Source of the DNA: a virus
Reading direction: 5' to 3' (one strand)
Virus record (IMG/VR): IMGVR_UViG_3300034779_000003
Span: 1 to 32,567 of that record
Length of the DNA: 32,567 bases
Numbering within the stretch: the stretch's first letter is position 1; the number at the start of each line of letters is the position of its first letter. The translations under genes were made by a program, and so were the position numbers. The notes below the pieces were generated by a model that worked only from the letters and a program-made list of their open reading frames with translations, was not told the DNA's origin and did not search any database. Positions 6,322 through 29,018 of this stretch are shown here, piece after piece.

Positions 6322-6405
6322 GTTTTCGAGGCGCGGCTCGGCTCTGCATGGATTGGCGCGGACTGGCGGGGCGAGGCAAGGCGAGGCATGGTAGGCAAGG
6401 CAAGG
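6315..6405 (+). repeat. GGNNN pentamer array, first copy
   Basis: GTCTTAAGTTTTCGAGG (6315-6331) includes the TAA of the upstream gene. It is followed by about fifteen GG doublets mostly spaced five bases apart, ending GGCAAGGCAAGG just before the HNH gene. The G-rich strand is the coding strand, as for the arrays on the minus strand at 3624-3811. Confidence 0.8.
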
Positions 6406-7767: not shown

Positions 7768-7793
7768 AACTTCCGCCTTTAGCTTCTATAGAA

Positions 7794-8228: not shown

Positions 8229-8271
8229 CTCTTCACACCTCTTTCAAAGAAGATTCAAATGCACCGGAAGT

Positions 8272-9792: not shown

Positions 9793-9858
9793 AATCTATT
9801 CGTCCTCGCTTTCAGATAAACTCGTTACTAGAGACTGCTGATTACTATGCCGCCGCTT

Positions 9859-10158: not shown

Positions 10159-10163
10159 TTTGT

Positions 10164-11667: not shown

Positions 11668-11669
11668 TA

Positions 11670-12098
11670 CTAGTATTTGCCGCGTGTCCCGTGGCCGAGC
11701 GCGAAAAATGTCGGCATCCGCGACTTGACCGTTGCTTTGTCTGGCCCAAGAAGCGCCATCTGCTCACTCCCCATCCGTTGGAGGTTGGCAATCAGCTTGT
11801 CTACGTCAACCTGCTGCCTGCTGTATCCGCCGCCGTCCCCGAAGTCTTCCTTTGTTATGAAAGGGACAAAGCGGGCGACCGTCGCCGCAAGGAAAAGGTT
11901 CAGAGCAAGTCCTACCCGCTTTTGCTTGTCCCCTTCGTAGCCAGCCGCATCCGGGTCGCGTTGCAGCACTTCAGTGATGGCCAGATTGACGTAAAGCTCG
12001 TCATGTATAACTTCATCCGGTAGATCGCTGGCCTTCAATGAAGCATCTATGGCCCGCCTCACGCTTTCCGGCTTGATAAGCTCCGCCAAATTTCCCAC
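11670..12098 (-). CDS. head-tail adaptor, Mu gp36-like
   Basis: 142 residues. An all-helical pattern with VNLAITEVLQRDPDAAGYEG and GLALNLFLAATVARFVPFIT fits the Mu gp36/HK97 gp6-type connector protein that docks under the portal. The GTG start at 12098 is preceded by GGAGGTGGG, a strong ribosome site. The gene follows the capsid and gp35-like genes. Confidence 0.6.
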   Translation of the reverse strand: MGNLAELIKPESVRRAIDASLKASDLPDEVIHDELYVNLAITEVLQRDPDAAGYEGDKQKRVGLALNLFLAATVARFVPFITKEDFGDGGGYSRQQVDVDKLIANLQRMGSEQMALLGPDKATVKSRMPTFFALGHGTRGKY

Positions 12099-12120
12099 CG
12101 CCCACCTCCGACGAACTGAC

Positions 12121-12396
12121 TTATTTAGTAGCGGGCGGTTTGCTCTCAGCCTTCGGCGCCGGGATTCTCGCTATCTTCCCATCACGCAGGAGCTGGCTGA
12201 CGGCGGGCGTCATCGCGACCTCCACCGGCTTCTTGCCCGCGATCAGGATCTCGCCCTTCGGGTGCGCATCGTCTTTCTCCCATAGCACCACTTTATTGCC
12301 GCCGTCCTCTTCGGACTTGAGCGCCGACCTGACCCAGATGGTCCTGGGCTCGTGCTGCTCAGTTGCGCCCTGCTGCTGATCTCTCTCGTCTGCCAT
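12121..12396 (-). CDS. Mu gp35-like small head protein
   Basis: 91 residues. The first 30 are charged and Gln/Glu-rich. The core, VVLWEKDDAHPKGEILIAGK followed by PVEVAMTPAVSQLLRDGKIARI, matches the short domain found directly after Mu-like capsid genes. The C-terminus is Pro/Ala/Lys-rich. Likely a capsid or head-completion accessory. Strong ribosome site TTGAGGTGA. Confidence 0.55.
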   Translation of the reverse strand: MADERDQQQGATEQHEPRTIWVRSALKSEEDGGNKVVLWEKDDAHPKGEILIAGKKPVEVAMTPAVSQLLRDGKIARIPAPKAESKPPATK

Positions 12397-12465
12397 ACAT
12401 TCACCTCAAGTGTTATGAGGGCGCTTCCTCCAGGAGATAAGCGCCCCGCCTTGTTCCTTGGCTTC

Positions 12466-12485
12466 GACTCAAAATATTTTGAGTC
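12466..12485. repeat. perfect 20-bp palindrome
   Basis: GACTCAAAATATTTTGAGTC, alone in the 110-bp gap between the major capsid stop and the next start. There is no U tract on either strand, so it is not an ordinary terminator. Confidence 0.8.
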
Positions 12486-12506
12486 ACTCTCGCGGGCGAC
12501 TGCGGT

Positions 12507-13775
12507 TTACGCCGCCAGGTTCGCCAGCTTCGTCGCGTTGTTGTCGAGCTTGCCGTAGCCCTCGGTCTCCGTCATCACGATGGCCTGCGTCTGCCTGGTG
12601 GCGAAGCGCTCCACTTCAGTGATCTCGGACCCGATCTCGGTCACGCGCTCAATCGCGAAGCGGGTATCGACGCCCACCCAAGTGTCTGCCGGCGCTCCGT
12701 CCGTGTTGCCGTAAGCCACGCCGTCGCCCAGAGACGAGGCCGCTCCGCCCATCAGCTGGAAGTCGCCGAGGCCGATGAACTTCTGTATCAGCACGAGCGG
12801 CACGTTGGCCGTTCCCGTGTTGATGAGCATCGCCTTCAGGATGCCCTTCTTACGCGCCAGAAGAGCCGTCATCTTGTAAGGCGACTTGAAGTTCAGGCGG
12901 AAGGAGAGCCACGCCTCGAGCGTCGTGTTCATCGCCATGGTGTCCGGGTCAAGGTCCGTCAGGTCGTAGGAAACGGCCGCCGTGTTCGGGTTGCCGTCGC
13001 CGTTGACGATGACGTCGATGATGGTCTCCACCTTGTCGTTCTCGGCCTGGATGGCCATGAGAGCGATCTGTAGCGCAATGCGGTCCAGGCGCTCTCTGCG
13101 CAGAACTTCGTAGGAGGCCTCGATGATGCGGCCGTACTTGAAGAGCTGCACGATGTGCTGGCTCGCCTTGAGCGTGACGCGCGGAATCTCCGTGGCCTCA
13201 ACTACGCGCACCTTCCGCTTCTGCTTCGGATCAACGTCCTGCAGGTAGATGACGCGGTAGGTGTCGCCCGGGATCGGGGTCGTAATGGCGACGAGCGCCG
13301 AGACCGGAATCTCGGGCACGAAGCGGTCCGTGACGATGCGCGCCGAGTCGACGTAGGGGCGCATCGCAGAGCCGGCCACGTCTTCGGTCGAAGTCTGCAC
13401 GGCGCGCGCGCCGCCCGCGGACGCGGGCCGTGTGCTGACAGCGCCGCCGTTGGTTACGGAGAGCCACTGGCGGCGGCACCATTCGAGGCCGAGCACGCGG
13501 CGCTCCGGAGTCTCGTCAAAGGCATCCTCCCAGATGTCGGCGTAGACGCCCGCCGACGGGATGCTGCGCGTGTAGATGTTGGCTTCTGCCATGACGCGGC
13601 CGAAGGCATCACGCACGTCGTTGTCGTTCGGGTCAGAGGGATTAAGGCGCTCCATCCAGGCCGAGAGGCTCATGCCGTGCTCGTAGGCATCTCTAACCAT
13701 GCGAGGGTTAACCTGCTCGAAGATCGCCTTCGGCCCCATGCGCGTGACCTGCGCAAGCTTCTTGAATTGTTTCAT
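12507..13775 (-). CDS. major capsid protein
   Basis: 422 residues, the shell subunit with a likely HK97 fold. It lies directly after the decoration protein and protease/scaffold genes. Sequence features agree: an N-terminal helical arm (QFKKLAQVTRMGPKAIFEQV), a central domain with HIVQLFKYGRIIEASYEVLR, ERLDRIALQIALMAIQAEND and NTTLEAWLSFRLNFKSPYKM, and a C-terminal VDTRFAIERVTEIGSEITEV followed by RFATRQTQAIVMTETEGYGK. Best ribosome site in the operon (GAAGGAGAG). Codon choice is more GC-rich than in the early genes, as expected for a highly expressed gene. Confidence 0.85.
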   Translation of the reverse strand: MKQFKKLAQVTRMGPKAIFEQVNPRMVRDAYEHGMSLSAWMERLNPSDPNDNDVRDAFGRVMAEANIYTRSIPSAGVYADIWEDAFDETPERRVLGLEWCRRQWLSVTNGGAVSTRPASAGGARAVQTSTEDVAGSAMRPYVDSARIVTDRFVPEIPVSALVAITTPIPGDTYRVIYLQDVDPKQKRKVRVVEATEIPRVTLKASQHIVQLFKYGRIIEASYEVLRRERLDRIALQIALMAIQAENDKVETIIDVIVNGDGNPNTAAVSYDLTDLDPDTMAMNTTLEAWLSFRLNFKSPYKMTALLARKKGILKAMLINTGTANVPLVLIQKFIGLGDFQLMGGAASSLGDGVAYGNTDGAPADTWVGVDTRFAIERVTEIGSEITEVERFATRQTQAIVMTETEGYGKLDNNATKLANLAA

Positions 13776-13843
13776 CTACTTACTCTCCTTCGAGTAGTCG
13801 CGCGCAGCACGCGCGGAGGGTTATGGGGCTGAGCGGTTAACCT

Positions 13844-14272
13844 TTACAACCTGACGGTGACTTTCGTCGGGTCAGAGGAATCGACGATGGAGCCGCGCGC
13901 CACGAGCGCGTCCGCGGCGTTTGCGGCTTCGCGAATGTAGCCGCGGTCTCCGGCGCCGCCAGCGCCAACCGCTCCGACGAACTTCTTTCCCGGGGTGAGG
14001 GCGGCGCCATTTCCGCCCGGAGCTTCTCCGTAGCCGCCGCTCTTGATGCCGACTTTACCGTCCGGCTCGACGTTCTCGAGGATGCCTTCGACCGCCGCCC
14101 CGTCGCTGGTGAGGGCGACTGTCTTATGCGCGCTCAACATCACGGCACGGCCAACCTTGTCGGAGCCGTTAGGCTGCGTGCGGTCATAAACTATGGTCAC
14201 GCCGTCGGCGATGTAAGTGGCCGGCAGGCGCCCGATGTCGGTGTAATCAACAGTGTTCCTGGGGTTACCCAT
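13844..14272 (-). CDS. capsid decoration (cement) protein
   Basis: 142 residues, Gly/Ala-rich and beta-strand-rich: VGRAVMLSAHKTVALTSDGA, then AVEGILENVEPDGKVGIKSGG and a Gly-rich end. It resembles DUF2190-type capsid cement proteins, which sit on the outer shell and stabilise it. Position between protease/scaffold and major capsid gene fits. Ribosome site AGGAGAG precedes the ATG. Confidence 0.6.
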   Translation of the reverse strand: MGNPRNTVDYTDIGRLPATYIADGVTIVYDRTQPNGSDKVGRAVMLSAHKTVALTSDGAAVEGILENVEPDGKVGIKSGGYGEAPGGNGAALTPGKKFVGAVGAGGAGDRGYIREAANAADALVARGSIVDSSDPTKVTVRL

Positions 14273-14305
14273 ACGTCTCTCCTTTTCGAGGGCTTAAAAG
14301 CCGAT

Positions 14306-14917
14306 TTACATGAAAGCCTGCGGCGGCACTTCAACCCGCACGGCGCGGTCCTGTTCCGAGGGCGGCAGTTCGGTCTCGTCGCTCGTAGCCCTTCCGCCCT
14401 GAAGATTCGCCTTCGCCTGGCGGGCCCAGTCGTCGCGCATGAGCTTGATCGTCTCGATCTCGGCCGAGCGCAGCGTCTTCTCGTACTGCTCCCGCTTGAA
14501 GTTGTCCGCTCCGTGCGCGCGCACCCCCTCCTTGAGCGCCTCTTCGATCAGGTCGCGGCGGTAAGTGAGGCCGTCAAGCGCAAGGTCAAGCACGCGGACG
14601 CTCGTGGGAAGAATTGATGCCTCTAACCCGCGGGCTGTGAGAAGCGTGCGGAGTTGCGGAAGCATGCGTGCATCATCGGCCGTTGCGCCTGCGGCCTCCG
14701 TGGCAGCTTGGTCCGTCGTGCCAGGGGAGTCTGTGGTCGTCCCGCCGCCATCGGTGGTGCCGGTCGTCGTCGCGCCAGCGCCTTCACCGGCAGACGCGCC
14801 CGCATTTGCCCCAGCGCCATTTGTGCCGGCGTTCGTGCCGTCTGTAGTCGTCGTGGTCGTCCCGGCGTTCGCGTCGGTAGTGGTGGTGGCTTCACCTTCT
14901 CGTCTATGGGTAGCCAT
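14306..14917 (-). CDS. nested scaffold protein, internal start
   Basis: An in-frame ATG at 14917 (protein MATHRREGEATTTTDANAG) is preceded by TGAGGAGA about 9 nt upstream, a strong ribosome site inside the protease gene. Translation there would give a 203-residue scaffold without the protease: a low-complexity linker, then a helical domain ending PPQAFM. Separate scaffold made from an internal start is known for lambda Nu3. Here it is inferred from the ribosome site and domain boundary. Confidence 0.55.
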   Translation of the reverse strand: MATHRREGEATTTTDANAGTTTTTTDGTNAGTNGAGANAGASAGEGAGATTTGTTDGGGTTTDSPGTTDQAATEAAGATADDARMLPQLRTLLTARGLEASILPTSVRVLDLALDGLTYRRDLIEEALKEGVRAHGADNFKREQYEKTLRSAEIETIKLMRDDWARQAKANLQGGRATSDETELPPSEQDRAVRVEVPPQAFM

Positions 14918-15706
14918 ATCTCTGTTCTCCTCAGTGGAATGGCCGGGGAATGACCGGCGCGTGCGTGAAAGGTTGAGATCAAGGAATCGGTAGCGCATCT
15001 CGAGGAAGCGGGCCACGTCCGGCTTCATGCGCCCCTCTTCGACGTCGCGCAAAGCTTTGACAATGACGGCGCCGGGGGTCGCCCCCTTGTAAACGGCGCT
15101 TAGCTCAGCCAGGTGCGCGTCCTCCACGTCGGCGGTCGCGATCACTTTGCGCACGGTCTTCGAGCCGTCAGTGTTCTCCTCTTCGACCTCTACTTCGCGA
15201 CCCGGATAGTGCCAGCAGTCCCAGCTCATCATGTCGAGACCGCAGATGGAGCAGATGAAGGTGCCGCCGTAGAAACCTATGGAGACATCACGCGCTATGC
15301 CCGTTCGGTACTTCGAGATGAAGTTGCCGGTCTCGGGCAGGTTCTGGATCGTGTAGAGATTAACGAGGACCCGGGCCTTGCCGTCACCCTGTGCGCCGAT
15401 GTATTCACCCGTGAGTGTCCGCCCCATCATGAAGGTGAGGGCGTCCGTCTGGTGGCTGTCCTGGAAGGACACCCCCTCGGCCGCTTCCGCGGCGTAGTTC
15501 TTCAGTGAGGAGGGCATCATCCGGGTGTAGTAGGCGTCGAGCCGATTGTTAGTGGCTTCCGCCGAGATAAAGAGAGGGGGGTACTCGTCGAAGGCGGCAG
15601 GGTCCGGGGCACGGTTCTTGGCGAGCGTCATCAGCTCCTCGGAGTTGAGCGCACGAGTGACGATCCCCGCCGGGTGAGTAAATTTCATGTTGGCTAATTC
15701 GCTCAC
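14306..15706 (-). CDS. prohead protease-scaffold fusion
   Basis: 466 residues. The N-terminal 260 are a serine protease of the prohead maturation type, with likely catalytic His85 (FQDSHQTD) and Ser142 (ARDVSIGF). Inserted next to the active site is a zinc-knuckle-like CSIC...CWHYPGR (Cys152, Cys155, Cys164, His166). Residues of about 270-345 are a Thr/Gly/Ala/Asp linker, followed by a helical charged scaffold domain. The start is GTG at 15706, overlapping the zinc-ribbon stop, with GGAGG upstream. The arrangement is like lambda C/Nu3: full-length protease-scaffold plus an internally started scaffold. Confidence 0.8.
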   Translation of the reverse strand: MSELANMKFTHPAGIVTRALNSEELMTLAKNRAPDPAAFDEYPPLFISAEATNNRLDAYYTRMMPSSLKNYAAEAAEGVSFQDSHQTDALTFMMGRTLTGEYIGAQGDGKARVLVNLYTIQNLPETGNFISKYRTGIARDVSIGFYGGTFICSICGLDMMSWDCWHYPGREVEVEEENTDGSKTVRKVIATADVEDAHLAELSAVYKGATPGAVIVKALRDVEEGRMKPDVARFLEMRYRFLDLNLSRTRRSFPGHSTEENRDMATHRREGEATTTTDANAGTTTTTTDGTNAGTNGAGANAGASAGEGAGATTTGTTDGGGTTTDSPGTTDQAATEAAGATADDARMLPQLRTLLTARGLEASILPTSVRVLDLALDGLTYRRDLIEEALKEGVRAHGADNFKREQYEKTLRSAEIETIKLMRDDWARQAKANLQGGRATSDETELPPSEQDRAVRVEVPPQAFM

Positions 15707-15909
15707 TGTGGCCTCCGCCTGTTCTTAGGGGCTCTTTCCTGCCTGAAATGCTGCCGAGGGTCGTCTTTGGCCTTTGGCCTGCGTCTCGGATCGGTAACCG
15801 GCTTAGTAACCTCGTCCCCGCAGCGGGGGCATTGGGCGCTCTTCAAGTCCGCGCCGTTCAGAGGCGCGCCGCAGGAAGGGCAGAATGTCTGTTGCTGGCC
15901 TTTGCTCAT
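15703..15909 (-). CDS. small zinc-ribbon protein
   Basis: 68 residues: FCPSCGAPLNGADLKSAQCP followed by RCG gives two CxxC knuckles (Cys10, Cys13, Cys27, Cys30). A long, very basic tail (RRRPKAKDDPRQHFRQERAP...) follows. It is coupled to the protease gene by a GTGA overlap. It probably binds nucleic acid or helps head assembly; function unknown. Confidence 0.65.
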   Translation of the reverse strand: MSKGQQQTFCPSCGAPLNGADLKSAQCPRCGDEVTKPVTDPRRRPKAKDDPRQHFRQERAPKNRRRPQ

Positions 15910-16410
15910 TTAGGCGACGGGTGCCCTCTTGATAGTGATGGAGACGTACAGGTCAGAGCCTGGAGTGGCGACGCCGATCTGGTCCACGTCCACTGTGATA
16001 CGGTCGCCTGCCGCGACGGCTACGATGTCAGGCAAGGTAGTGGTGCTGGCCTTCGCGCCGTCGGCGACTGTGGGGCGGTTGCCCTGCGTGGTGAAGAGCG
16101 TGACGCCGTTCTTATTGACATCGACGATGAGAGCGGCGCCGATGGGCTCGGTGTCGACATAAGCCCTGACGTCCACGATGTTGCCGGCAACTCCGATAAG
16201 GGCGGCGGCTACCTTAGCGGCGACGGCCAGGCCGCCCGCGACGAAGAGCGTGACAGTCTCGAGCGTATTAGGCTGAGTAAGCTTCGCGGGGGTGATGCCA
16301 CTCAGGCGCGCGAGCGGAACTGTGCCGGACGTCAATTCGCTGGCGTTGAGCTTCTTAATGCCGCTGCCGTCCTTGGCGCTCAGCTTGTCGAAATTCGTTT
16401 CGCCCATCAT
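15910..16410 (-). CDS. head fibre-like or decoration protein (putative)
   Basis: 166 residues. The N-terminal 50 residues resemble the shaft repeat of phage fibres (IKKLNASELTSGTVPLARLS). The rest is a beta sandwich (VDVRAYVDTEPIGAALIVDV ... GSDLYVSITIKR), similar in pattern to fibre head or receptor-binding domains. First gene after the late promoter-like element. Ribosome site TGAGGTAA. Whether it decorates the head or the tail cannot be told. Confidence 0.55.
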   Translation of the reverse strand: MMGETNFDKLSAKDGSGIKKLNASELTSGTVPLARLSGITPAKLTQPNTLETVTLFVAGGLAVAAKVAAALIGVAGNIVDVRAYVDTEPIGAALIVDVNKNGVTLFTTQGNRPTVADGAKASTTTLPDIVAVAAGDRITVDVDQIGVATPGSDLYVSITIKRAPVA

Positions 16411-16492
16411 TTACCTCAACTTTGTGAATCACTCGGAGAGTAAAACCGAAAAGGAGCAACCCTTCGCTCATGTCCAGCGCGCATTATGGGGT

Positions 16493-16544
16493 TAAGGTGC
16501 AGGGCTTGTGTGTGAACAACCTCGAAAACAACCTCGAAAACAAC
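16493..16544 (-). promoter_or_regulatory. late promoter-like element, copy 2
   Basis: Minus strand: two 12-bp direct repeats GTTGTTTTCGAG, then GTTGTTCACACAC, a 19-bp variable spacer, then CATAATGC (-10-like, 16498-16493). The same repeats, spacer length and -10 occur at 24477-24416. It lies between a strong terminator and the first gene of the head/tail unit. There is no -35 consensus at 17 bp, so an activator binding the direct repeats is likely (inference). Confidence 0.6.
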
Positions 16545-16564
16545 CTTGCGCGCACTACAAAAAA

Positions 16565-16598
16565 GAGTGGGGACTCAAAACATTTTGAGTCCCCACTC
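16565..16598 (-). terminator. rho-independent terminator built on the palindrome
   Basis: A 16-bp perfect stem, GAGTGGGGACTCAAAA and its complement around a 2-base centre. On the minus strand it is followed by TTTTTT, so it ends the terminase/portal transcript. Its core, ACTCAAAACATTTTGAGT, is a copy of the recurrent palindrome, extended by GC pairs. Confidence 0.85.
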
Positions 16599-16622
16599 TC
16601 TCGTTAAGGTAAAAGATATGAT

Positions 16623-17129
16623 CTAGGTGGATTCCGCCGGCTGAACCGCGGCATCGTCTCGCGCGGGGCGTCCGGCGTCTTCGCTCATCTTCTCCAGAAG
16701 CGCCTTGTTAGCGCTCGCCTGGTCGTCATGGGTGGTAACATTCCCGTTCCAATGAAGCTCGTACTTTCTGCCTTCTTCCGTATCGACAGGCTTTATTCCG
16801 TTCATGCCTCTCTCCTTGTCTGCAATGTTGAAGTTTAGGGGCTGAATTCCATAACCGAATCTCTCCCACCGAACCCTTGACTTCTCGTCCCATTCGGACT
16901 GCACCCGCCGAGCTTTATCCCGCGCATCTTCAGTGTTGATTGTGCTCTCATGAAAGATAATGCCTTCGGGGTCATCTCTTTCGTCCCAGAAGCCTGTAAT
17001 GCTAACGGCCTTACCCTCATCATCAACCAGGACTTCTAGGGCTAGGCCGAGCGGGTGAAAGAATTGGCGGTTGACCTCCTGGAGGTAGCCGAACCTGACG
17101 AATTCGTCTAAAGAAATAAATCTCTTCAT
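16623..17129 (-). CDS. conserved phage protein following the portal gene
   Basis: 168 residues from ATG 17129 (MKRFISLDEFVRFGYLQEVN). The longer open frame is a shadow of the portal gene. Ribosome site GGGGGAA just upstream. The N-terminal domain QFFHPLGLALEVLVDDEGKA followed by GFWDERDDPEGIIF matches a family commonly found beside phage portal and structural genes. The C-terminal 40 residues are hydrophilic and Asp/Ala-rich. Function unknown; a virion-associated role is plausible. Confidence 0.65.
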   Translation of the reverse strand: MKRFISLDEFVRFGYLQEVNRQFFHPLGLALEVLVDDEGKAVSITGFWDERDDPEGIIFHESTINTEDARDKARRVQSEWDEKSRVRWERFGYGIQPLNFNIADKERGMNGIKPVDTEEGRKYELHWNGNVTTHDDQASANKALLEKMSEDAGRPARDDAAVQPAEST

Positions 17130-17139
17130 CACGTTCCCC

Positions 17140-18756
17140 CTATTGCACTGTGTGCGTCTCAATCGTCGAAGAAGTGTGCCTGCGCACGAGGTCAACCAGG
17201 TCGCCCGAGAACGTGCGGTGGCCGTTGGCCTGCGCTTTGCGGTTACTGCCCGGATCGGGATTAGTGTTGGCGGCGTCCGTCGCCCCGTTGTTTCCGGGCG
17301 AAGGTGCCTGTCGCGGTGCGGGCGCGTCAGCTTTGGCCTTTCCCGCCGACTTCTGCGCCATCTCATCGGCCGAGATGGATCCGTTGTCATATTGCATGCG
17401 GGCCGTCTGAGTGTTCAGTAATTCGACCTGCGCGTCGCGCAAGAGTTCCGCCGCGCGCAGCTCCGCGAACTTAAAGTCCACGGACGCGTAGACGCCCTTG
17501 GCCTGCATCGCCAGCCCGAACTGGTGCTCCAGCATCGTCTCGCCCAGCTGTTGGATGGATTTGATGAAGGCCGCGTAAATCTCCCACTGGCGGTTGGCGT
17601 TCGCTTCACTGACACCGTCCGTAGTGGCCATCAGGAGAGGCATGGACTTAGCCGCACGGGTCGTCATCCTCTCAAGGGCTTTGAATAGCCCGTCGATTGC
17701 CCCGAGGCTTGAAGTGTTTGTCGCGCCGACGGTCTGCTTGTTGACCTGAATGAAGGAGGCGTGGATGTAGGCGTCATCCGGTTCCAGCCCGCTGTAGACA
17801 GACTGAACCAGCTTGACGACGCCCTCGGCCCAGTCCATAAACTCCTGCGGGTCCGAGCCCATGTCCTCAGGCATGGAATCCCTGAGCTTCTCCAGATCGA
17901 TCTCAATATCAATGCGGGGATAGCCCTGCTGCTGGATAACCCGCCTCAAATCGTGTAGCACGCCTAAGAGGAAAAGGGCGCAGAAGAGCGCGGACGAGAA
18001 GAGGGGTCTTCCTTCGGGGCGCCCGGGGAGCGGCTGTATGGGGATGTAGCTGATGGTGGGCCTGTCCAGTACGACGAACTGCCCGTTCTGCCACTGCCCT
18101 AACTGCCAGACAGCGCCTCGAATGGGATCAGGCACGCGGCGGAAGGCGACGTAAGCCGGATCCGGAGTGACGAGGTCTACCAGCTCTCGGCCCGCCTCAT
18201 CAAGGACTGCTTCGGAGAAGAAGGCGCCGCGCAGTGCGGCGTTCGTGAAGAGCCTGTCGATTACTACTTTCGGGGAGCCATACAGCTTGCGCAAAGTAGC
18301 AAGTATTGAATCCAACTCCTTCTGCGCTTCCTTGTCCTGATCATCCGTGCCGGGCCTGACCGCCCGCGCCTCATAGCCGGGGTTGCACATCAGCACGAAG
18401 TCCGAGAGGGCGCGGGAAATCTCCGGGGAGACGTCCGCCATCAGCTCCATCAGCTTCCACGGGCTAATCTTGCTCATGGGGTCTTTGTCGAGCACCAGGT
18501 CGCGCCAGTAGCGGTCGGCGCTGAAGGGCGCGACCGTCTGGAGGGCGCTCGCAAACATATCCTGCGGCGTGTCGTAGGTAACGCGGGAACTACCGGAGAC
18601 GCTGCGCGCAAAGCCGTAGGTGTCGAGCGCCGGGGCAGAGGCGGAGGCACGCTTCTTTGCGTTAATGGTGGGCTGCTTTACATTACCAAGCACATTCTCC
18701 GAAGAGCCATCCGAAAACGGCTCCCAACCCGCCAGGCCCAGCATGTTGACCTTCAT
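17140..18756 (-). CDS. portal protein
   Basis: 538 residues, directly after the large terminase gene. The portal forms the dodecameric ring through which DNA is pumped. The sequence has the expected wing/stem pattern: VSPEISRALSDFVLMCNPGY, an ELVDLVTPDPAYVAF strand segment, WAEGVVKLVQSVYSGLEPDD, and helical stem KALERMTTRAAKSMPLLMAT, then the C-terminal helices VDFKFAELRAAELLRDAQVE. The last 70 residues are Pro/Ala/Asn-rich and disordered. Gene order and length make this firm. Confidence 0.85.
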   Translation of the reverse strand: MKVNMLGLAGWEPFSDGSSENVLGNVKQPTINAKKRASASAPALDTYGFARSVSGSSRVTYDTPQDMFASALQTVAPFSADRYWRDLVLDKDPMSKISPWKLMELMADVSPEISRALSDFVLMCNPGYEARAVRPGTDDQDKEAQKELDSILATLRKLYGSPKVVIDRLFTNAALRGAFFSEAVLDEAGRELVDLVTPDPAYVAFRRVPDPIRGAVWQLGQWQNGQFVVLDRPTISYIPIQPLPGRPEGRPLFSSALFCALFLLGVLHDLRRVIQQQGYPRIDIEIDLEKLRDSMPEDMGSDPQEFMDWAEGVVKLVQSVYSGLEPDDAYIHASFIQVNKQTVGATNTSSLGAIDGLFKALERMTTRAAKSMPLLMATTDGVSEANANRQWEIYAAFIKSIQQLGETMLEHQFGLAMQAKGVYASVDFKFAELRAAELLRDAQVELLNTQTARMQYDNGSISADEMAQKSAGKAKADAPAPRQAPSPGNNGATDAANTNPDPGSNRKAQANGHRTFSGDLVDLVRRHTSSTIETHTVQ

Positions 18757-18768
18757 ATCTTCAGCCTC

Positions 18769-20592
18769 CTACATGGGAATCTTGGTGCTGCCCTGGACCA
18801 GCGCGCCCGGTATGTGGCGGGGCAGCGTCCTCTGCGCTATAAGGTCGTAGACGGCCGCGTGGAACAGGTGGTCAGGCTTCGTATGCACCCACGTTGCGAA
18901 GGGCTGTCCCTCGTCGTTCGTGGTGACTTTGCGCACGGGGGCGCTCATGTGTGCGATGACTTCGGAGTCGTTATGCACTGCTGCCGGCCAGACCTCCCGC
19001 CCTCCAGCGATCAGGTTGTAAATTGTGTCCATCGCCATGGTGCGATCGACTTGGACGATGTCTTTCTTGAGTACCTTTGGCTTACTCACCTTAATCCCGT
19101 GCATCTCCTTCTCTTCCGCAGAGGGGAGCTTAAACAATTCGCCCTTCAGATCCTTGTAGAAGGCGCGAAAGACTTTGCCCTTGTGCTTCTGCGACCAGGC
19201 CTCCGCCCCGTGCAGCTCCGGCATCGCGTCAACTACGACGTGGCGGACCTTGTACCTGACCATAAGATCGTCCAGGTCGTCCCAGCTATTGACAGAGCCC
19301 ATCGCCAGCACGTAACGCTTCTTATCTGTCCCTGTGCCTGATATGCGGTAGTGGTAGTGCGCGCCAACGTCTACCCCCATCGTGACGTCGCGCCACGGTC
19401 CGTCGGGGAGGAGCCCGTTATCAAGATCGGCGCTCAACTGCTTGAGCATGGCCTCTGTTACGCGGCTGTCGGCAGCGTCATAGGGGATTCCGAGATCGGA
19501 GCGGTAAAACTCAATTATCTGCTCCGGGTCCGTGCTGATGGAGGAGATGCACAGCTCTCTTAACGAGACTGACGGGAAGGCGAACCAGGGTACGTGGTAG
19601 CCGCGGGTGCGCGTGATCTCGGGGTGCCGCGCGATCCAGCGGCCTGGGCCGAACCTGTCAGCGTCCTGCATGGGCTCTTTACAATTGGGACAAGATACTG
19701 TGATTGTTCCCTGATGAATCCGCTCCTCATCCCACTTCTTCCACTCGTCATAGGCGGCCCCGTTTACTTTAACGTCCCGGTGGAAGCTCAACGTATTCCA
19801 CGCATCACAGAGCGAGCACCTGACTTCCCATTCCCTCTGGTCGGACTTCAAATAATCGTCGTGAATTCCGAAGCCGGGAAACGTCGGGGTGGAGAGCCTG
19901 AACTGGCGCTTGACCTGGCTGTGGCGCAGGCGCTTGACCGCAAGGGCCACGGCGCGGGGCAGCATCTCGTCGCGCTCGTCCAGTATGAGAACGTCGGCCT
20001 TGAAGGATTTCAGTGCCTTAACAGACCACGCGCCGCGCATGTAGAAGTAGCTTTTACCAGCCTTCTTAAACCTGACGTCGTCGTAGTCATCGAAGAATTT
20101 ATCGAGCTTTTCCGACTCGTCCTTGAGGGCGCTGATACGCTCCTTAGAGAAATCGAAGAGCGCCTCCTGCGTGGGAAAGAGGTAGCCTACGTTAAGGCCG
20201 TCATTGCTGGTCTTCCAGTATTGTGCCCCTATATCCAGGGCGTGAAGGGCGCGGGTGATGGCGAGCTCTGAGACGCCGACCTGTGCGGGCTTCATGACGA
20301 CTATGAAAGGGTGGTCGTCATCGTAGATTTCCCTGAGAGGCTCGTAACCTGTCGCGGGCTCCGTCTCGCTCGCGGGCTTATAGTCGAGGGAGAAGGCCTG
20401 CCCCTCTATTTGGCGATACATTATCGCCCAGGCCAGAGGCGAGAGGATAACCTTGCGAGCCTCCTCACCGGTAGCTGGGTTGATTTTAGTTTCCGAGTAG
20501 AGTTCGACGGCAATATCAATCGCCTGGTCCTGAAGATCAGGCGGAAGCGCCATGATGCGCTCGAACAGTTCTGTGCGTGAAAGCTGTTGCAT
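18769..20592 (-). CDS. terminase large subunit (GpA type)
   Basis: 607 residues. The packaging motor: ATPase near residues 97-110 (FIVVMKPAQVGVSE, a GpA-type Walker A with Gln-Val-Gly) and Walker B VLILDERDE near 201-210. Between ATPase and nuclease lie two Cys pairs (CSLCDAW and CPNCKEP), a zinc-binding insert common in GpA proteins. The C-terminal nuclease shows MGVDVGAHYHY, HVVVDAMPE and HLFHAAVYDL acidic/His positions. The ATG at 20592 overlaps the small-subunit stop (TGATG); a TTG one codon upstream is unlikely. Confidence 0.9.
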   Translation of the reverse strand: MQQLSRTELFERIMALPPDLQDQAIDIAVELYSETKINPATGEEARKVILSPLAWAIMYRQIEGQAFSLDYKPASETEPATGYEPLREIYDDDHPFIVVMKPAQVGVSELAITRALHALDIGAQYWKTSNDGLNVGYLFPTQEALFDFSKERISALKDESEKLDKFFDDYDDVRFKKAGKSYFYMRGAWSVKALKSFKADVLILDERDEMLPRAVALAVKRLRHSQVKRQFRLSTPTFPGFGIHDDYLKSDQREWEVRCSLCDAWNTLSFHRDVKVNGAAYDEWKKWDEERIHQGTITVSCPNCKEPMQDADRFGPGRWIARHPEITRTRGYHVPWFAFPSVSLRELCISSISTDPEQIIEFYRSDLGIPYDAADSRVTEAMLKQLSADLDNGLLPDGPWRDVTMGVDVGAHYHYRISGTGTDKKRYVLAMGSVNSWDDLDDLMVRYKVRHVVVDAMPELHGAEAWSQKHKGKVFRAFYKDLKGELFKLPSAEEKEMHGIKVSKPKVLKKDIVQVDRTMAMDTIYNLIAGGREVWPAAVHNDSEVIAHMSAPVRKVTTNDEGQPFATWVHTKPDHLFHAAVYDLIAQRTLPRHIPGALVQGSTKIPM

Positions 20593-21074
20593 CAATTAAC
20601 GCGATCAGGGATCTCTTCAGGTTTGACCCCTAGAATGTCAGCCAGCGTTTTTCGCTTGTCGTCAACTTTCAACTTTCTCGTATTCGTAAAGAGGCCGCCG
20701 CGCTCTTTCGCCGCCTGCTCCAGGTGCTGCGCGGCTATCACATCCTTGCCGTCTTTAAGAGCGGCGCGGTAGAGCTTGCCCAGCTCCCTGAGGCGAAAGC
20801 TCCTGTGCGCGACGTCTATATTCGACTCGTCATCAACGAACTTCTTACGCTCTTCCCAGAACAGTTTCTTCAACTCGTCGCCGAGCTTCTGGCCCATGAA
20901 CTTCGTCGGATCATAGGCTTCGACGGCCTGGCGCGACATCTCAACGCCGAGATCCTCTTCGACTAGATCTGCCACCTCAGTGGGAGACATAAACTGCGCG
21001 AGGCATCGCACGACGAAGCGCTTCTGCGCGACATTGAGCCTCTTTTTCTTTTTCTCCTCCGCCACCTTTTTCAC
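20592..21074 (-). CDS. terminase small subunit (DUF2280-like)
   Basis: 160 residues. KRLNVAQKRFVVRCLAQFMS, then PTEVADLVEEDLGVEMSRQAV is a helix-turn-helix domain as in DUF2280, a family that acts as DNA-recognition terminase subunit. Later helices (RSFRLRELGKLYRAALKDGK, AAQHLEQAAKERGGL) form the oligomerisation part. The start is GTG at 21074; a stop lies close upstream in frame. The stop is coupled to the large subunit. Confidence 0.8.
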   Translation of the reverse strand: MKKVAEEKKKKRLNVAQKRFVVRCLAQFMSPTEVADLVEEDLGVEMSRQAVEAYDPTKFMGQKLGDELKKLFWEERKKFVDDESNIDVAHRSFRLRELGKLYRAALKDGKDVIAAQHLEQAAKERGGLFTNTRKLKVDDKRKTLADILGVKPEEIPDRVN

Positions 21075-21096
21075 CTGCCGGGCAACTCAAAATGTC

Positions 21097-21258
21097 TTAA
21101 GCCGCCCCCTCCTTATCAATCAGCACCAGCACCTCGGCGTCATCGTCGAAGTAACGCTGTCTCATCTCGCCGTCCAGTGCGCATTTTTCGTCTGCTTTGA
21201 CGTAGAGCTTCGCTTCCACGGTGAAAGGCGCTGTGACTTTCACGCTGCTAAACGGCAT
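21097..21258 (-). CDS. 53-aa protein of unknown function
   Basis: MPFSSVKVTAPFTVEAKLYV, then KADEKCALDGEMRQRY, then FDDDAEVLVLIDKEGAA. Acidic, beta-rich, no recognised motif. It fills the gap between the metallopeptidase and the small terminase, is in the operon direction and has coding-like composition. ACTCAAAAT, a half of the palindrome, lies just after its stop (21084). Confidence 0.5.
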   Translation of the reverse strand: MPFSSVKVTAPFTVEAKLYVKADEKCALDGEMRQRYFDDDAEVLVLIDKEGAA

Positions 21259-21290
21259 GACTTCAGTTGTAAGCACTTAGCATTCTCCTC

Positions 21291-21310
21291 GACTCAAAAT
21301 ATTTTGAGTC
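21291..21310. repeat. perfect 20-bp palindrome
   Basis: GACTCAAAATATTTTGAGTC, five bases after the metallopeptidase stop and 33 bases before the ATG of the 53-aa gene. No U tract. Confidence 0.8.
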
Positions 21311-21315
21311 CTGCG

Positions 21316-21960
21316 TTATGCCACCAGCCTGAGACATGTCCCGCATGCCGCGCGGACCTGAGAGGCTCCAACCTCAGGCTCAAGACCTGCGACCTCCGCC
21401 AGTTGACGCGAAGCCCCACGCGCAGCGCCCGCGCCGTACCTCCGCCACTCGCTGACGAAGACTTCAACGTCGTGGCTTCGAAGGTCGAAGATGGGAGAGC
21501 CGTCCTTTTTCCACCTCTTGGTCTTGCCGTCGTCCTCGACTGCCTGCCCGCAGTGGAGGAATTCGTGCTCTACCCCCGAACAATATGTGTAGTCGTCCGC
21601 GCGCGCGAAGAAGGGGGCATAGAGGGTGATCAGGAAGTCGAAGGTAAGATAAGCACTGCCGAACCACTGGCGGAAGGGGATTTCCTGGCGGGCCTTTTGA
21701 CGCGCCTTGCCGCGAAAGCTCAGAATCTCGGCCGTGCCGATTACTTCGACTCCTCCCTTTCCTTCCCAGACGCTAGACCACAGCACGCCGATTTTGGCGT
21801 ACTTCAGGTGCGTGTGCTCGGGGTTGTGGATGGGGCCCTTCTCGTCAACTACAGCCTTGCGGAACCAATCGTAGACCTCGGGCGCGGGCTTCCACAGATC
21901 ACCTGGCTCGTGCATCTCGGGTGGCGGATAAGGCCTGTTGAGTTCGATTAGCTTCGTCAT
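21316..21960 (-). CDS. phage metallopeptidase (PhageMetallopep-like)
   Basis: 214 residues. SGVEHEFLHCGQAVEDDGKT contains HExxH (HEFLH) followed by Cys-Gly, then HDVEVFVSEWRRYGAG. This matches the pattern HELCHCG...HDVEEF...RRYG of the putative phage metallopeptidase domain (PF18894 type). Its substrate is not known in general; it is often beside terminase genes or early genes. The first 110 residues carry hydrophobic strands (AYLTFDFLITLYAPFFAR). The last 35 residues contain a CGTC pair. There is no clear ribosome site; a GC-rich hairpin ends 10 bases before the ATG. Confidence 0.75.
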   Translation of the reverse strand: MTKLIELNRPYPPPEMHEPGDLWKPAPEVYDWFRKAVVDEKGPIHNPEHTHLKYAKIGVLWSSVWEGKGGVEVIGTAEILSFRGKARQKARQEIPFRQWFGSAYLTFDFLITLYAPFFARADDYTYCSGVEHEFLHCGQAVEDDGKTKRWKKDGSPIFDLRSHDVEVFVSEWRRYGAGAARGASRQLAEVAGLEPEVGASQVRAACGTCLRLVA

Positions 21961-21970
21961 TAAGCAATAA

Positions 21971-22003
21971 GGGGCGCGGGCTTTTATTCATGCCCGGCGC
22001 CCC
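21971..22003 (-). terminator. GC-rich hairpin, possible terminator
   Basis: On the minus strand GGGGCGCCGGGC pairs with GCCCGCGCCCC (one bulge) around a 10-nt loop, then TTATTGCTT follows. It could end the lysis/receiver transcript in part, or act as a leader structure for the metallopeptidase gene. Confidence 0.45.
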
Positions 22004-22063
22004 GGCAAACCGTCAGTCCTGGAGGGAGCGGCCTCTCAAGTTTTGCCAGGCTTACTAAAACAT

Positions 22064-22177
22064 TCACTTACGCTTCATTCGCTTCTCCATAAAAAGAAGT
22101 AGTAGGGGCTGCGCAATCGCTCCGAGCGTCACCAGCACGATGAAGGCCCATGACGCTGCTATCAGCCAGCCCTTCAT
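22064..22177 (-). CDS. 37-aa single-pass membrane protein
   Basis: MKGWLIAASWAFIVLVTLGA, then IAQPLLLLFMEKRMKRK: one or two hydrophobic stretches and a basic tail. The ATG lies 2 nt after the stop of the receiver-domain gene, so the two are coupled. In a region with holin- and spanin-like genes it may be a small holin or holin regulator (inference). Confidence 0.5.
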   Translation of the reverse strand: MKGWLIAASWAFIVLVTLGAIAQPLLLLFMEKRMKRK

Positions 22178-22179
22178 AG

Positions 22180-22641
22180 TTAGCCCTCTGGGGCCTCGCT
22201 TTTGCCGAGGGCCGAGAGCCACCCGTCGACTACGGCCGTCAATTCCTCAATCTCAATTGGCTTTGTCATGCGGAATCGGATGTCGTACTTCTGGAACTCG
22301 GAGGACATTTCCGCCGTCTCCATGAAGGCCGTGACGACGCCCACGATGGCCGGACGCGCGATGCCGATTTCCCGCTCCAATTCACGAAGGATGCGAGCGA
22401 CCATGAAGCCGGTAGCGTCTTTCATCGCAAGATCGAGCAGGTAGAAATCGTAGGGGTGAGTCCTGAGGCGGGGATCGACGTGATTACGATCTTTTAATTG
22501 CGCGATTAGACTGATGCTCGCGTCGAAGGCGTTATCGAAGAAGTCTATGTCACAGGGCCAGCTGCGCGTGGCATCCCGCAGCAGGTCCAGCGTCTCATCG
22601 GTGTCATCTACTATCAGTCCTCTTCTTCGCTCTTTGCTCAC
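22180..22641 (-). CDS. stand-alone response-regulator receiver protein
   Basis: 153 residues from the GTG at 22641 (MSKERRRGLIVDDTDETLDL), which has AGGTGG upstream; the longer frame is a shadow of the preceding gene. All CheY-type positions are visible: acidic pair Asp12-Asp13, phospho-acceptor Asp70 (FYLLDLAMKDATGF), Thr104 (GVVTAF) and Lys127-Pro128 (RMTKPIEIEEL). No output domain follows. Receivers are central to two-component signalling and are rare in phages. It lies within the lysis-type gene cluster and overlaps the preceding coiled-coil gene by 38 bp. No histidine kinase is in the window, so it would have to take phosphate from, or compete for, a host kinase. Confidence 0.8.
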   Translation of the reverse strand: MSKERRRGLIVDDTDETLDLLRDATRSWPCDIDFFDNAFDASISLIAQLKDRNHVDPRLRTHPYDFYLLDLAMKDATGFMVARILRELEREIGIARPAIVGVVTAFMETAEMSSEFQKYDIRFRMTKPIEIEELTAVVDGWLSALGKSEAPEG

Positions 22642-23104
22642 GCTGCCACCTCTCAAGCTCCGCGACCCTCTGAGACAGTTCACTGAATGTTTTGAGTGCG
22701 CTTCTGATTGCGCTATTGGCCTGTTCATCCCTCTCATCACATTCTTTCTTTATGCGGTCGCGCTCCTTCTCCGCCTCTTCAACTCGTCTTTCCAGTTCCT
22801 CATTCCGGCGCTTTAGCTCCGCATTCTCTTCTTTGATGTCCTCCAACCTCCGGGACCGCAGGTCTGCCAGTTCCTGGCTCTCCGCGGCTATCTTTCGGGC
22901 CCCCTCGGTTCTGGCGTCGACCGTGTCTTCAAGCTCGCGCGCGCGCGCCTCGTCTCCGGCCTTTAGTCTTTCGCGGACCCCCTTAAACCAGGCCCACAGC
23001 TTCCTGCCCACCCACGTGACGACAACAGTGCCGCCGCCGAGGCCCCCAATGATAATCAGGATGACGGCCCATACTTCCTCAGCATTAGGTTTAGCCAGCC
23101 CCAT
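22604..23104 (-). CDS. TM/coiled-coil protein, i-spanin-like
   Basis: About 166 residues. An N-terminal membrane anchor (VWAVILIIIGGLGGGTVVVT, near residues 10-35) is followed by a long, charged coiled coil (ENAELKRRNEELERRVEEAE ...). This topology is that of inner-membrane spanins such as Rz, and the neighbouring lipoprotein could be the outer-membrane partner. It could also be a general phage membrane scaffold. ATG 23104 or GTG 23113 may be the start. Confidence 0.6.
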   Translation of the reverse strand: MGLAKPNAEEVWAVILIIIGGLGGGTVVVTWVGRKLWAWFKGVRERLKAGDEARARELEDTVDARTEGARKIAAESQELADLRSRRLEDIKEENAELKRRNEELERRVEEAEKERDRIKKECDERDEQANSAIRSALKTFSELSQRVAELERWQREQRAKKRTDSR

Positions 23105-23258
23105 CCGATTCACTCTGGCGGCGCTCTTCTTCCAGGTTAAAAATCCGGCATTCTATCTCGGCCTGCTGCCGCTCAAGCATCGAGAGGCTGATTCTGCTGT
23201 CGTCACTGGCTTGCGGGGGCGCATAAACCCGAGTAGTAATCTCTCGTAAGGCCTGCAT
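23091..23258 (-). CDS. 55-aa charged protein of unknown function
   Basis: MQALREITTRVYAPPQASDD, then SRISLSMLERQQAEIECRIF with an Arg/Glu-rich helical end. ATG 23258 has GGAAG upstream; a TTG further up is less likely. The C-terminal half may be coiled coil. It overlaps the start of the TM/coiled-coil gene, so both are probably co-translated. Confidence 0.5.
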   Translation of the reverse strand: MQALREITTRVYAPPQASDDSRISLSMLERQQAEIECRIFNLEEERRQSESDGAG

Positions 23259-23360
23259 AATGTTCTTCCGCCACTGCAAGGTTGAAGTTTTCCGGCTCCG
23301 TGCTAATCTCCTTCATGTTGCGCGACGGATACTTTAACCGGGTCTGTCGCGTGACATGCT

Positions 23361-23386
23361 CGGCGGGTTGTGCAACCAGCCCGCCG
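23361..23386 (-). other. GC-rich hairpin after the lipoprotein gene
   Basis: CGGCGGGTTG pairs with CAAC and CCGCCG across a 4-base bulge. There is no U tract. It lies in the 143-bp gap between the lipoprotein stop and the 55-aa gene, and may slow transcription or stabilise the mRNA. Confidence 0.4.
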
Positions 23387-23401
23387 GGCCTCCGCTCCGG
23401 C

Positions 23402-23899
23402 CTACTGAGGCGGATTCTTCAGCAGATCTTCGAGCCTCTTTATGTCCGCTTCCTTCACATTCAAGCCATCTGACTCCTCAGTCGCAGCGGCAGGCACGGA
23501 CTTCATCAACGCGCGCGCCGTAGACGGCGGCGGCAGCCCTACGAAGGCGCGCACGAGCGCCAGGATGTCGTTCTTCCACGTCTCGGCCGTGGGGTTGTTA
23601 CTTTGGACAAAATCGTCGGAGATAACCTGCGCGATGTCGGAGGCGAGCTGGCGTTTGGCCTCTCTCTTTAATTCGGGGGTGGACTTATCGGCGGCACGAT
23701 AGCCGCGCAGTGAATTGCTGGTGCGGCGAAAGCCTCCGGACCATTTCTCTTTTGTGGCCTCATCTATGTTCATACGCGAGACCGCCGACGGGCCGAGATC
23801 GGAGACCGCAATGAGCTTGTCCAGGGCGCCGCATCCAATGCTGAATAGGGCAATCAGGGAGAGGGTGACTGGAATACATATCCGAGAAAATATCTTCAC
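23402..23899 (-). CDS. lipoprotein, possible outer-membrane spanin or lysis factor
   Basis: 165 residues. MKIFSRICIPVTLSLIALFS then IGC gives a type II signal peptide with lipobox SIGC (lipid on Cys23). The mature part is helical and hydrophilic (ALDKLIAVSDLGPSAVSRMN ...) with a Pro-rich segment near residue 125. It lies next to a holin-like gene upstream and a TM/coiled-coil gene downstream. It is larger than usual o-spanins, so the lysis role is uncertain. The GTG start has AAAGGAGA upstream. Confidence 0.65.
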   Translation of the reverse strand: MKIFSRICIPVTLSLIALFSIGCGALDKLIAVSDLGPSAVSRMNIDEATKEKWSGGFRRTSNSLRGYRAADKSTPELKREAKRQLASDIAQVISDDFVQSNNPTAETWKNDILALVRAFVGLPPPSTARALMKSVPAAATEESDGLNVKEADIKRLEDLLKNPPQ

Positions 23900-23911
23900 T
23901 TCGATTCTCCT

Positions 23912-24298
23912 TTAAGTTGTGGCGTTAGATTTCCCCGAGTCAGGGAAGATGACCTTGAAGACGAGGGTGGCGATGCCGAAGACGGCCCATCCGACGGTGT
24001 ACAGCTTCGACAGGTTGAACTGCCTGCCCTCCACCATCGCGTGGAGGTCCGCGTCGCCCGTCAACCAGAGAGCCACCAGTGAGACGATTGCGCTTATCAC
24101 GAGGGCCACGAAGAGCGCGGGCCTGCCGTGCAAACGGCCATTCTCGTCCGTGAGATTCCAGCTCTTCGGGAGCAGTCCCCGATTGACGAACCAGGCGATG
24201 CCGGTTGAGACGGCGCCGGCAATGCTTAATGCCATGGCCTGACCTGAAGTAAGCGCGGCGGCAATGAAAAGTGTTGCGATTAAGACAGCTGTTAGCAT
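23912..24298 (-). CDS. multi-pass membrane protein, holin-like
   Basis: 128 residues with about four hydrophobic segments: residues 2-18 (LTAVLIATLFIAAALTS), 22-40, 62-80 (ALFVALVISAIVSLVALWL) and 100-118 (LYTVGWAVFGIATLVFKVIF). It is the first gene after the late promoter-like element and is followed by a lipoprotein and a spanin-like protein, so a holin is the most likely role. Strong ribosome site GAGGGG. Confidence 0.6.
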   Translation of the reverse strand: MLTAVLIATLFIAAALTSGQAMALSIAGAVSTGIAWFVNRGLLPKSWNLTDENGRLHGRPALFVALVISAIVSLVALWLTGDADLHAMVEGRQFNLSKLYTVGWAVFGIATLVFKVIFPDSGKSNATT

Positions 24299-24329
24299 TT
24301 ACGCACCCCTCACATTTGGTTAATTGGTA

Positions 24330-24367
24330 CCCTTGCGGGCAAAGCCGGAAAGGCCCGCCCGCAAGGG
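24330..24367 (-). other. leader hairpin of the lysis/late unit
   Basis: CCCTTGCGGGC (24330-24340) and GCCCGCAAGGG (24357-24367) form an 11-bp perfect stem. The loop contains a small GCC/GGC stem. It lies between the promoter-like element and the holin-like gene, so it would be near the 5' end of the mRNA, without a U tract. Probably a stability element. Confidence 0.5.
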
Positions 24368-24415
24368 CTCGCGCGGCTGGTCAGCCCCTAAGATGGCAGC
24401 CGCGGGTAGGGTTGC

Positions 24416-24477
24416 ATTATGTGGGCAGGGGTGGCTGGGCGTGTGTGAACAACCTCGAAAACAACCTCGAAAACAAC
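24416..24477 (-). promoter_or_regulatory. late promoter-like element, copy 1
   Basis: Minus strand: 37 bp identical to the copy at 16544-16508 (two GTTGTTTTCGAG direct repeats, then GTTGTTCACACAC), a 19-bp unrelated spacer, then CATAATGC (-10-like, 24421-24416). It lies between the last early gene and the holin-like gene. Confidence 0.6.
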
Positions 24478-24490
24478 TCTACGCCGGTGG

Positions 24491-24778
24491 CTAGGCAGTC
24501 ACCTTGGAGTAATAGTTTCGGTCGAAGTAGCCTTTAAGGTTCCGATGGTCCGCGCAGAGGGAGACCTCTCCCTCCTTAAGCTTCTTACCGCATTCGAGGC
24601 ACCGGCCCAGCTTTTTACGGCGGGCGCGCTTTGCTTTATTGCGAACCTTCTGTTTATTGCTATGCTCTTGGGCGCAGGCCTGGCAGCGTGTGCCGGTCCC
24701 TTTGGGGCCGCGCTCTTCTCCACAGTCGAAACATTTTCCTTCCTTAACCCATGTCGATCTAATTTTAAGACCGGGCAT
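24491..24778 (-). CDS. basic zinc-finger protein
   Basis: 95 residues with two zinc sites: CFDCGEERGPKGTGTRCQAC (residues 16-35) and CLECGKKLKEGEVSLCADH (residues 60-78), joined by a very basic KAKRARRKK stretch. Likely DNA- or RNA-binding. It ends the early operon just before the late promoter-like element, the usual site of a late-gene regulator, but no family proves this. Confidence 0.65.
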   Translation of the reverse strand: MPGLKIRSTWVKEGKCFDCGEERGPKGTGTRCQACAQEHSNKQKVRNKAKRARRKKLGRCLECGKKLKEGEVSLCADHRNLKGYFDRNYYSKVTA

Positions 24779-26935: not shown

Positions 26936-27295
26936 TTAGACCTTTCCTTTGTGACGCATCCGCAGCCAGTTAAAACCGGCGTCCCTCAGCTCCAGAAGCC
27001 GGATGGCCAGCGTAGCCCCGTCGCGCTTACGGCGCCCAATATCCCTCCATGATGGGCGATGTTCCATACGTCTATAGGCCAAGCCCCAGACAGCCAAAGT
27101 CAATATCAATCGTGAGTAGAACCAGTAGGTGGTGCGCTTGCCTTCGCCCACAGCCACCACGACACCCTCCAGCGGCTTCTCCTTGGCGTTATCCGGTATG
27201 ACAATAAGGCTTTGTTCCTCACTCTCATCCGCGCGACGGATGATGACTCTATCCTGAAGAGGGGTGCCGATTTGCTTTGTTGCTTGTTTGTTCAT
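26936..27295 (-). CDS. GroES N-terminal half fused to a membrane segment
   Basis: 119 residues from ATG 27295 (GGAG upstream); ATG 27307 is possible. Residues 11-54, [20 protein letters not shown] followed by [20 protein letters not shown], match the first half of co-chaperonin GroES, with the mobile-loop region shortened and PDNAKEKP...GVVVAVG clear. The second half of GroES is absent. Instead [20 protein letters not shown] (57-76) is a probable membrane helix, followed by a basic tail. Full GroES is about 95 residues. The lost half holds the barrel's closing strands, so ordinary co-chaperonin function is doubtful. It could be a decoy or a remnant recruited to a membrane role. Confidence 0.7.
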
Positions 27296-27341
27296 TGTCT
27301 TCTCCATAATTTGTGCCCGCCGAGTATCTCGCCGGGGAGGT

Positions 27342-27361
27342 GACTCAAAATATTTTGAGTC
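27342..27361. repeat. perfect 20-bp palindrome
   Basis: GACTCAAAATATTTTGAGTC, 34-47 bp upstream of the GroES-like gene and downstream of a 300-bp gene-poor stretch. Confidence 0.8.
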
Positions 27362-28808: not shown

Positions 28809-29018
28809 CTATCGATTTCGTATCCTTTTCTTCGGCGCTCCCTTGATACGAACTGTGTTGGGTTTGACGTGATATTCAGTCAGCCTCTCCAGAACCTCCG
28901 TGATGGCCGCGAGCAGGATTTCATCCGAGTAGCCAGTCACTTCAATGGTCGCGCGGCTCACGCGGTAAGGCGATCCGTCATTACGCTTCTCGACGACCTT
29001 TTTCCTGATTATGATCAT
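28809..29018 (-). CDS. 69-aa unknown protein coupled to the initiator
   Basis: MIIIRKKVVEKRNDGSPYRV, then SRATIEVTGYSDEILLAAIT, then a basic end PKKRIRNR. Beta-alpha pattern. The ATG overlaps the initiator stop (ATGA). It might be a replication partner such as an accessory to helicase loading, but nothing in the sequence says so. Confidence 0.55.
   Translation of the reverse strand: MIIIRKKVVEKRNDGSPYRVSRATIEVTGYSDEILLAAITEVLERLTEYHVKPNTVRIKGAPKKRIRNR

Follow-up and report, generated by a model that had tools for sequence, protein, structure and literature searches.

The question raised by IMG/VR record IMGVR_UViG_3300034779_000003, an uncultivated bacterial virus whose 32,567 bases are the whole stretch analyzed here (the window), is how it turns on its late genes. 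Pfam and PHROGs matches identify it as a contractile-tailed phage with its terminase, portal, capsid, and sheath genes all on the minus strand; no phage close to it was found in an annotated phage collection. On the same strand, a 37-bp block, GTTGTTTTCGAGGTTGTTTTCGAGGTTGTTCACACAC, occurs twice in identical form, at two places that we call site 1 and site 2 (Table 1). Exactly 19 unrelated bases after each copy comes CATAATGC (24421-24414 and 16488-16481), which begins with the -10-like hexamer CATAAT. The duplicated block and the exact length of the unrelated filler had been noticed in an initial annotation made from the sequence alone, and both are confirmed at the two sites. We consider it likely that these sites are matched late promoters with a phage-specific activator, most likely the product of the small gene at 24491-24778, and that they most likely switch on the lysis genes and the shell genes late in infection.

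The block consists of three GTTGTT cores at 12-bp spacing, which is a 12-bp tandem repeat with two full copies and a partial third. The initial annotation was correct about the direct repeats, but it counted only two of them; likewise, its positions for the blocks hold, but it ended site 2 at 16493, which is 5 bp before CATAATGC starts and 12 bp short of the end of the element. By simple arithmetic, the number of exact 37-bp repeats expected by chance in 32.6 kb is ~1e-13. The 18-mer core of the block has 4 matches at ≤3 mismatches in the window (0.03 expected), and CATAATGC is present only at the two sites (0.68 expected). No further copy of the block was found in the window with ≤3 mismatches allowed, including before the baseplate genes, where additional copies had been suggested as a check. 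An exact scan of IMG/VR with the window's own 18-mer gave no matches.

Searches of IMG/VR with terminase, portal, and capsid, together with a pattern scan, yielded relatives, and nine of them have a common architecture of two or three GTTGCGC-like cores every 12 bp, then 23 to 24 bp, and then CATAAT. G001, whose terminase is 66% identical to that of the window, has a different 33-bp block twice, 23 bp before CATAAT, in the same two places, while at the site 2 position G004 has a third version of the block, whose period is likewise 12 bp. G018 and G019 were added by a degenerate scan of the collection. All four contigs that span both positions (the window, G001, G008, and G018) have exactly two sites each, in matching places. 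We aligned 14 sites from the ten phages, anchored on CATAAT. The hexamer is present at a fixed distance in 14 of 14 sites and has maximal information per column, compared with ~1.2 bits for two of the cores and 0.39 for the spacer; the ATAAT part was imposed in the scans of the relatives, and the leading C was not imposed for sites from the NATAAT scan described below. No -35 box above random was detected at the 14 sites (mean of 2.07 of 6 matches versus 2.34 at random positions). Block identity within a genome is 0.91 to 1.00 and between genomes averages 0.54, while spacer identity within genomes is just 0.29 to 0.46, with spacer and downstream sequence near the random level. Since the blocks agree within genomes and differ between them, the filler is unrelated, and the -35 box is absent, these sites have the signature of promoters that use a phage-specific activator.

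The 12-bp period is also detected when the repeat sequence itself is not used. Among 1115 NATAAT sites in the loci of the relatives, 14 rows have a strong upstream direct repeat, and in 12 of these the lag is exactly 12; the rows include overlapping loci, and two are AT-rich sequence that we attribute to chance. At 252 CATAAT sites, a lag of 12 gave 12 repeats and the other lags between 8 and 16, used as a control, gave 1 to 4. The degenerate scan yielded 25 stretches at lag 12 and 15 at the control lag of 13, which indicates that most of its hits are chance. For this reason, hits were accepted only in relatives with homologous neighbor genes (L022, L130, and L138, plus already known records). 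No relative came from scans of genome contigs with the terminase alignment; the portal alignment found seven, several labeled Chloroflexota, and a lag-12 scan of the loci of these seven found no element. By eye, usual-looking -35/-10 sequences stand near the site 2 position in G003 and G005, which are more distantly related.

If the hexamer is taken to span -12 to -7, the cores start at about -68, -56, and -44, and the proximal core covers about -44 to -37, beside the normal position of -35 contact. In the mechanism that we propose, the -10 hexamer CATAAT would be used by the housekeeping sigma factor of the host polymerase, and the two or three direct-repeat cores that stand in place of the absent -35 element would bind a phage activator that recruits or holds polymerase. 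The invariant nonconsensus C at -12 may keep the basal promoter weak. A zinc protein made early would turn on site 1, and with it the lysis-side genes and onward into terminase and portal, and would also turn on site 2, and with it the head and tail genes, which a terminator would insulate. The sequence of the repeats and the specificity of the activator would then change together between phages. The comparisons with relatives thus support the proposal of the initial annotation that these are late promoters with upstream activator sites and a probable phage activator, and we regard activation by a phage protein as very probable.

The best candidate for this activator was found in an all-against-all comparison of the early regions upstream of site 1 in six phages (the window, G001, G008, G011, G013, and G018). 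A family of proteins of 95 to 130 amino acids with two zinc-finger-like modules is the sole family common to all six regions, and in all six its gene directly adjoins site 1. In the window, this gene closes the early cluster, with 13 bp between its end and the site 1 block. In the alignment, the modules of its product are CX2C-X12-CX2C and CX2C-X11-CX2H, and the predicted structure (predicted local distance difference test score of 90) has two Cys-rich zinc modules, each followed by a helix. When all fetched loci were searched with a profile of the family, the only match outside the six phages was in G015, and a second search of the relatives that lack the element found no family member. The contigs of G004, G007, G014, and G019 end short of the region where the gene would lie. 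None of seven family members has a convincing Pfam match, or any match to Ogr_Delta at E ≤ 1, and their PHROG matches are weak only (DksA-like, 5.7e-5); Alt and Ltr sequences were not directly compared. Fold comparison gave weak similarity to a GATA finger (Z of 2.7) and to DksA (Z of 2.2 to 2.3), Foldseek gave no useful match, and a search of the phage collection with one family member gave no match. Because these sequence and fold searches provided only weak leads, we infer DNA binding from the position of the gene, its co-occurrence with the sites, and the composition of the protein. On these grounds, the zinc protein is probably the activator.

Several observations weigh against this interpretation. 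Contig ends truncate the early regions of G008, G011, and G013 (~3.6 to 6 kb), and an activator gene located farther off might have escaped detection. The weak GATA-finger similarity is the best structural match to the zinc protein, and no match proves DNA binding. The scans required ATAAT and might have overlooked sites whose -10 box differs. Finally, G015 has the zinc protein and has CATAATGC ~90 bp after the gene, without 12-bp repeats; instead, it has a diverged 27-bp duplicated block (L166 16832-16858, which is G015 46832-46858, and G015 32928-32954).

The late promoters might instead be activated by another DNA-binding protein of the phage or of the host, with the zinc gene remaining beside site 1 by inherited gene order. 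Other early genes are common to some of the phages (e.g., four of the six have that for the HTH_36 protein at 29015-29950), proteins with zinc modules serve diverse functions, and DksA-like proteins, to which one weak PHROG match points, act on polymerase without binding DNA. However, no family but the zinc family occurs in every one of the six early regions, where its gene adjoins site 1 each time, and a host factor would fail to account for repeats that vary between phages yet agree within each. We consider this explanation unlikely, although it deserves to be taken seriously. It is improbable that the repeats are operators at which a phage repressor shuts off both late units. Repressors typically use the same operators at several promoters, inverted repeats of 7 and 11 bp occur in the blocks of G001 and G004, and the gene for an IrrE-like peptidase in the window, together with a divergent promoter region, might represent a lysogeny module. 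On the other hand, with the blocks entirely upstream of the -10 hexamer, a fixed spacer of 23 to 24 bp, and no -35 box, basal transcription would be too low to call for repression, and the block of the window and most of the others have no inverted repeat.

We give very little credence to the idea that the repeats are read by a sigma factor, whether phage encoded or alternative, and not by an activator. Such a factor would fit the fixed distance from core to hexamer and the absence of the usual -35 box, but a -35-like core would be ~8 bp too far upstream, a sigma factor needs no two or three tandem copies, and the window genes that were scanned with Pfam gave no match to a sigma factor. Just as improbable is a role of the sites in packaging, replication, or recombination, which is brought to mind by the fact that they bracket the terminase and portal genes in the window, G001, and G008. 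It would leave unexplained why CATAAT stays at a constant distance although the filler is unrelated, why both sites have the same orientation into operons, and why site 2 comes directly after a terminator in the window and G001.

Matched late promoters with a phage-specific activator also agree with the genes that follow the sites (Table 1), as the initial annotation had proposed in placing one site before lysis genes and the other before head genes. In several relatives, the first genes after site 1 encode unrelated types of cell wall lytic enzyme (GH46 in G008, VanY/M15 in G001, and a LysM protein in G011), which indicates that it is the promoter that is conserved and not the gene. In the window, our reading of the sequences is that a small membrane protein and then a lipoprotein-like protein follow site 1. 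Head genes come after site 2, and the strong terminator predicted before the head/tail unit is indeed there; in G001, a shorter terminator lies upstream of site 2. Five relatives have a strong hairpin whose 5' arm lies over the -10/start region of site 2 (p of 0 to 0.012 versus random positions), a feature that is absent in the window. Transcripts that start at the promoter itself would largely lack this arm, so the hairpin might stop only read-through transcripts. G014 has a weaker candidate terminator upstream besides its hairpin, so the replacement of terminator by hairpin is a tendency rather than a strict exchange.

Table 1. Positions of the sites, their counterparts in relatives, and surrounding features
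Feature	Genome (locus)	Position	Strand	Details
Site 1 activator block (putative)	Window	24441-24477	-	37 bp, same letters as site 2 block
Site 1 -10-like hexamer	Window	24416-24421	-	CATAAT, 19 bp after block
Site 2 activator block (putative)	Window	16508-16544	-	37 bp, same letters as site 1 block
Site 2 -10-like hexamer	Window	16483-16488	-	CATAAT
Places matching site 1	G001; G008; G011; G013; G018	11800; 5729; 3995; 6253; 37647
Places matching site 2	G001; G004; G007; G008; G014; G018; G019	1147; 4441; 5500; 16560; 3447; 43130; 31957
Candidate activator	Window	24491-24778	-	95 amino acids, basic, two Cys-pair zinc modules
Genes after site 1	Window	21316-24298	-	Membrane protein, lipoprotein-like, receiver-domain protein, metallopeptidase (open reading frames, Pfam)
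Terminase	Window	18769-20595	-	Between sites 1 and 2 (Pfam, PHROGs)
Portal	Window	17140-18756	-	Between sites 1 and 2 (Pfam, PHROGs)
Terminase + portal span between sites	Window	17140-20595	-
Intrinsic terminator directly upstream of site 2	Window	16564-16599	-	17-bp perfect inverted repeat; fold -32 kcal/mol, z -9.07, T6 tail
Head + contractile-tail genes after site 2	Window	7096-16410	-	Pfam, PHROGs
Capsid	Window	12507-13775	-
Sheath	Window	8272-9792	-
Hairpin at site 2	G007 (L153); G014 (L160); G008 (L154); G004 (L012); G019 (L165)	5500; 3447; 16560; 4441; 31957
Receiver protein	Window	22180-22740	-
Receiver protein	L005; L154; L138; L158; L159	9396-9794; 11179-11619; 5815-6219; 6397-6882; 7658-8194

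Downstream of the site 1 genes, a stand-alone receiver domain protein (PF00072) is encoded in six of six phages, and the retention of a phage-borne CheY-like protein in this position is unusual. Other repeats are present in the window. A perfect 20-bp palindrome, GACTCAAAATATTTTGAGTC, is found at 12466-12485, 21291-21310, and 27342-27361, with variants at 15-34, 5658-5677, and 16573-16592. Related palindromes are present in G008 (ACCTATAACGTTATAGGT and ACCTAAAACGTTTTAGGT), in G018 (a similar one before site 2), and in G001 (three copies), and the 20-bp palindrome is possibly a second phage-specific regulatory site. An inverted 18-bp repeat, AGTCTTAAGTTTTCGAGG, lies at both ends of a plus-strand gene cluster (3795-3812 and 6314-6331) and has GTTTTCGAGG in common with the late-promoter unit. 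The segment 4014-4102, which looks like an early control region, contains two divergent perfect TTGACA boxes with 17-bp spacers that flank or overlap a 22-nucleotide inverted repeat. The same 27-bp ribosome-binding/start-codon segment, AAAGGGGGTGCGCGCTGATGGCTAAGA, precedes two nearby small genes (4638-4664 and 5185-5211). The window also encodes a GroES-like (Cpn10) protein (26936-27307, minus strand; E of 2.9e-12) and a small protein (31935-32396, minus strand) that aligns where part of the portal protein also does; in G001, the C-terminal region of the portal is present in a second, incomplete copy (L003 12901-13200 and 13664-13963).

A literature search for this phage lineage found nothing, and the scheme proposed here would be the first testable model of late-gene control for a lineage of uncultivated phages. 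It provides six matched candidate activator/repeat sets, one from each of the phages whose early regions were compared, and possibly a seventh, diverged set in G015. Given this natural co-variation, part swaps between phages could reveal the DNA-recognition rule of a small zinc protein. A consensus promoter scan of the window did not report this promoter class, which a reading of the raw sequence can find. It is possible, and we suggest it only tentatively, that the tandem zinc-module family is a new class of late activator in which each member reads its own 12-bp repeats, that the matched pairs have diversified across the lineage, and that in some relatives a start-site hairpin replaces the terminator and stops only read-through transcripts.

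Comparison with known systems identifies two analogues and one closer counterpart. At Pm of phage Mu, there is a -10 but no -35, and the Mor site, centered at -43.5, replaces the -35 (PMC4390567, PMC4461284). The sites described here similarly have a -10 and no -35, and their proximal core is close to the Mor-site position. In contrast, the Mor dimer binds an inverted repeat, whereas here there are 12-bp-spaced direct repeats, with no inverted repeat of ≥5 bp within the block in the window and at most sites; no Mor/C homologue was found among the genes scanned. P2 Ogr and P4 Delta are small zinc proteins that activate several late promoters with only a short common box (PMC3931495), and the candidate here is likewise a small zinc protein that would act at more than one late promoter. 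However, it has two modules in the alignment, unlike the one CX2CX22CX4C finger of Ogr, and the Ogr site type, TGT-N12-ACA, is found in 0 of 14 sites; the candidate is not a recognizable member of the Ogr family. The closest known systems are those of the Ltr/Alt/RinA type, in particular the Ltr/Alt late regulators of Gram-positive phages. The differences are that the candidate here has two zinc modules in ~95 to 130 amino acids and no detected similarity to a known regulator family, and that each genome has a pair of promoters, not one late transcript. Alt of TP901-1 has four imperfect direct repeats, from -76 to -32, upstream of the start (PMC13123087), and both TP901-1 Alt and Ltr of Staphylococcus aureus Phi13 resemble the arrangement described here in gene order and in direct repeats just upstream of the promoter (PMC13123087).

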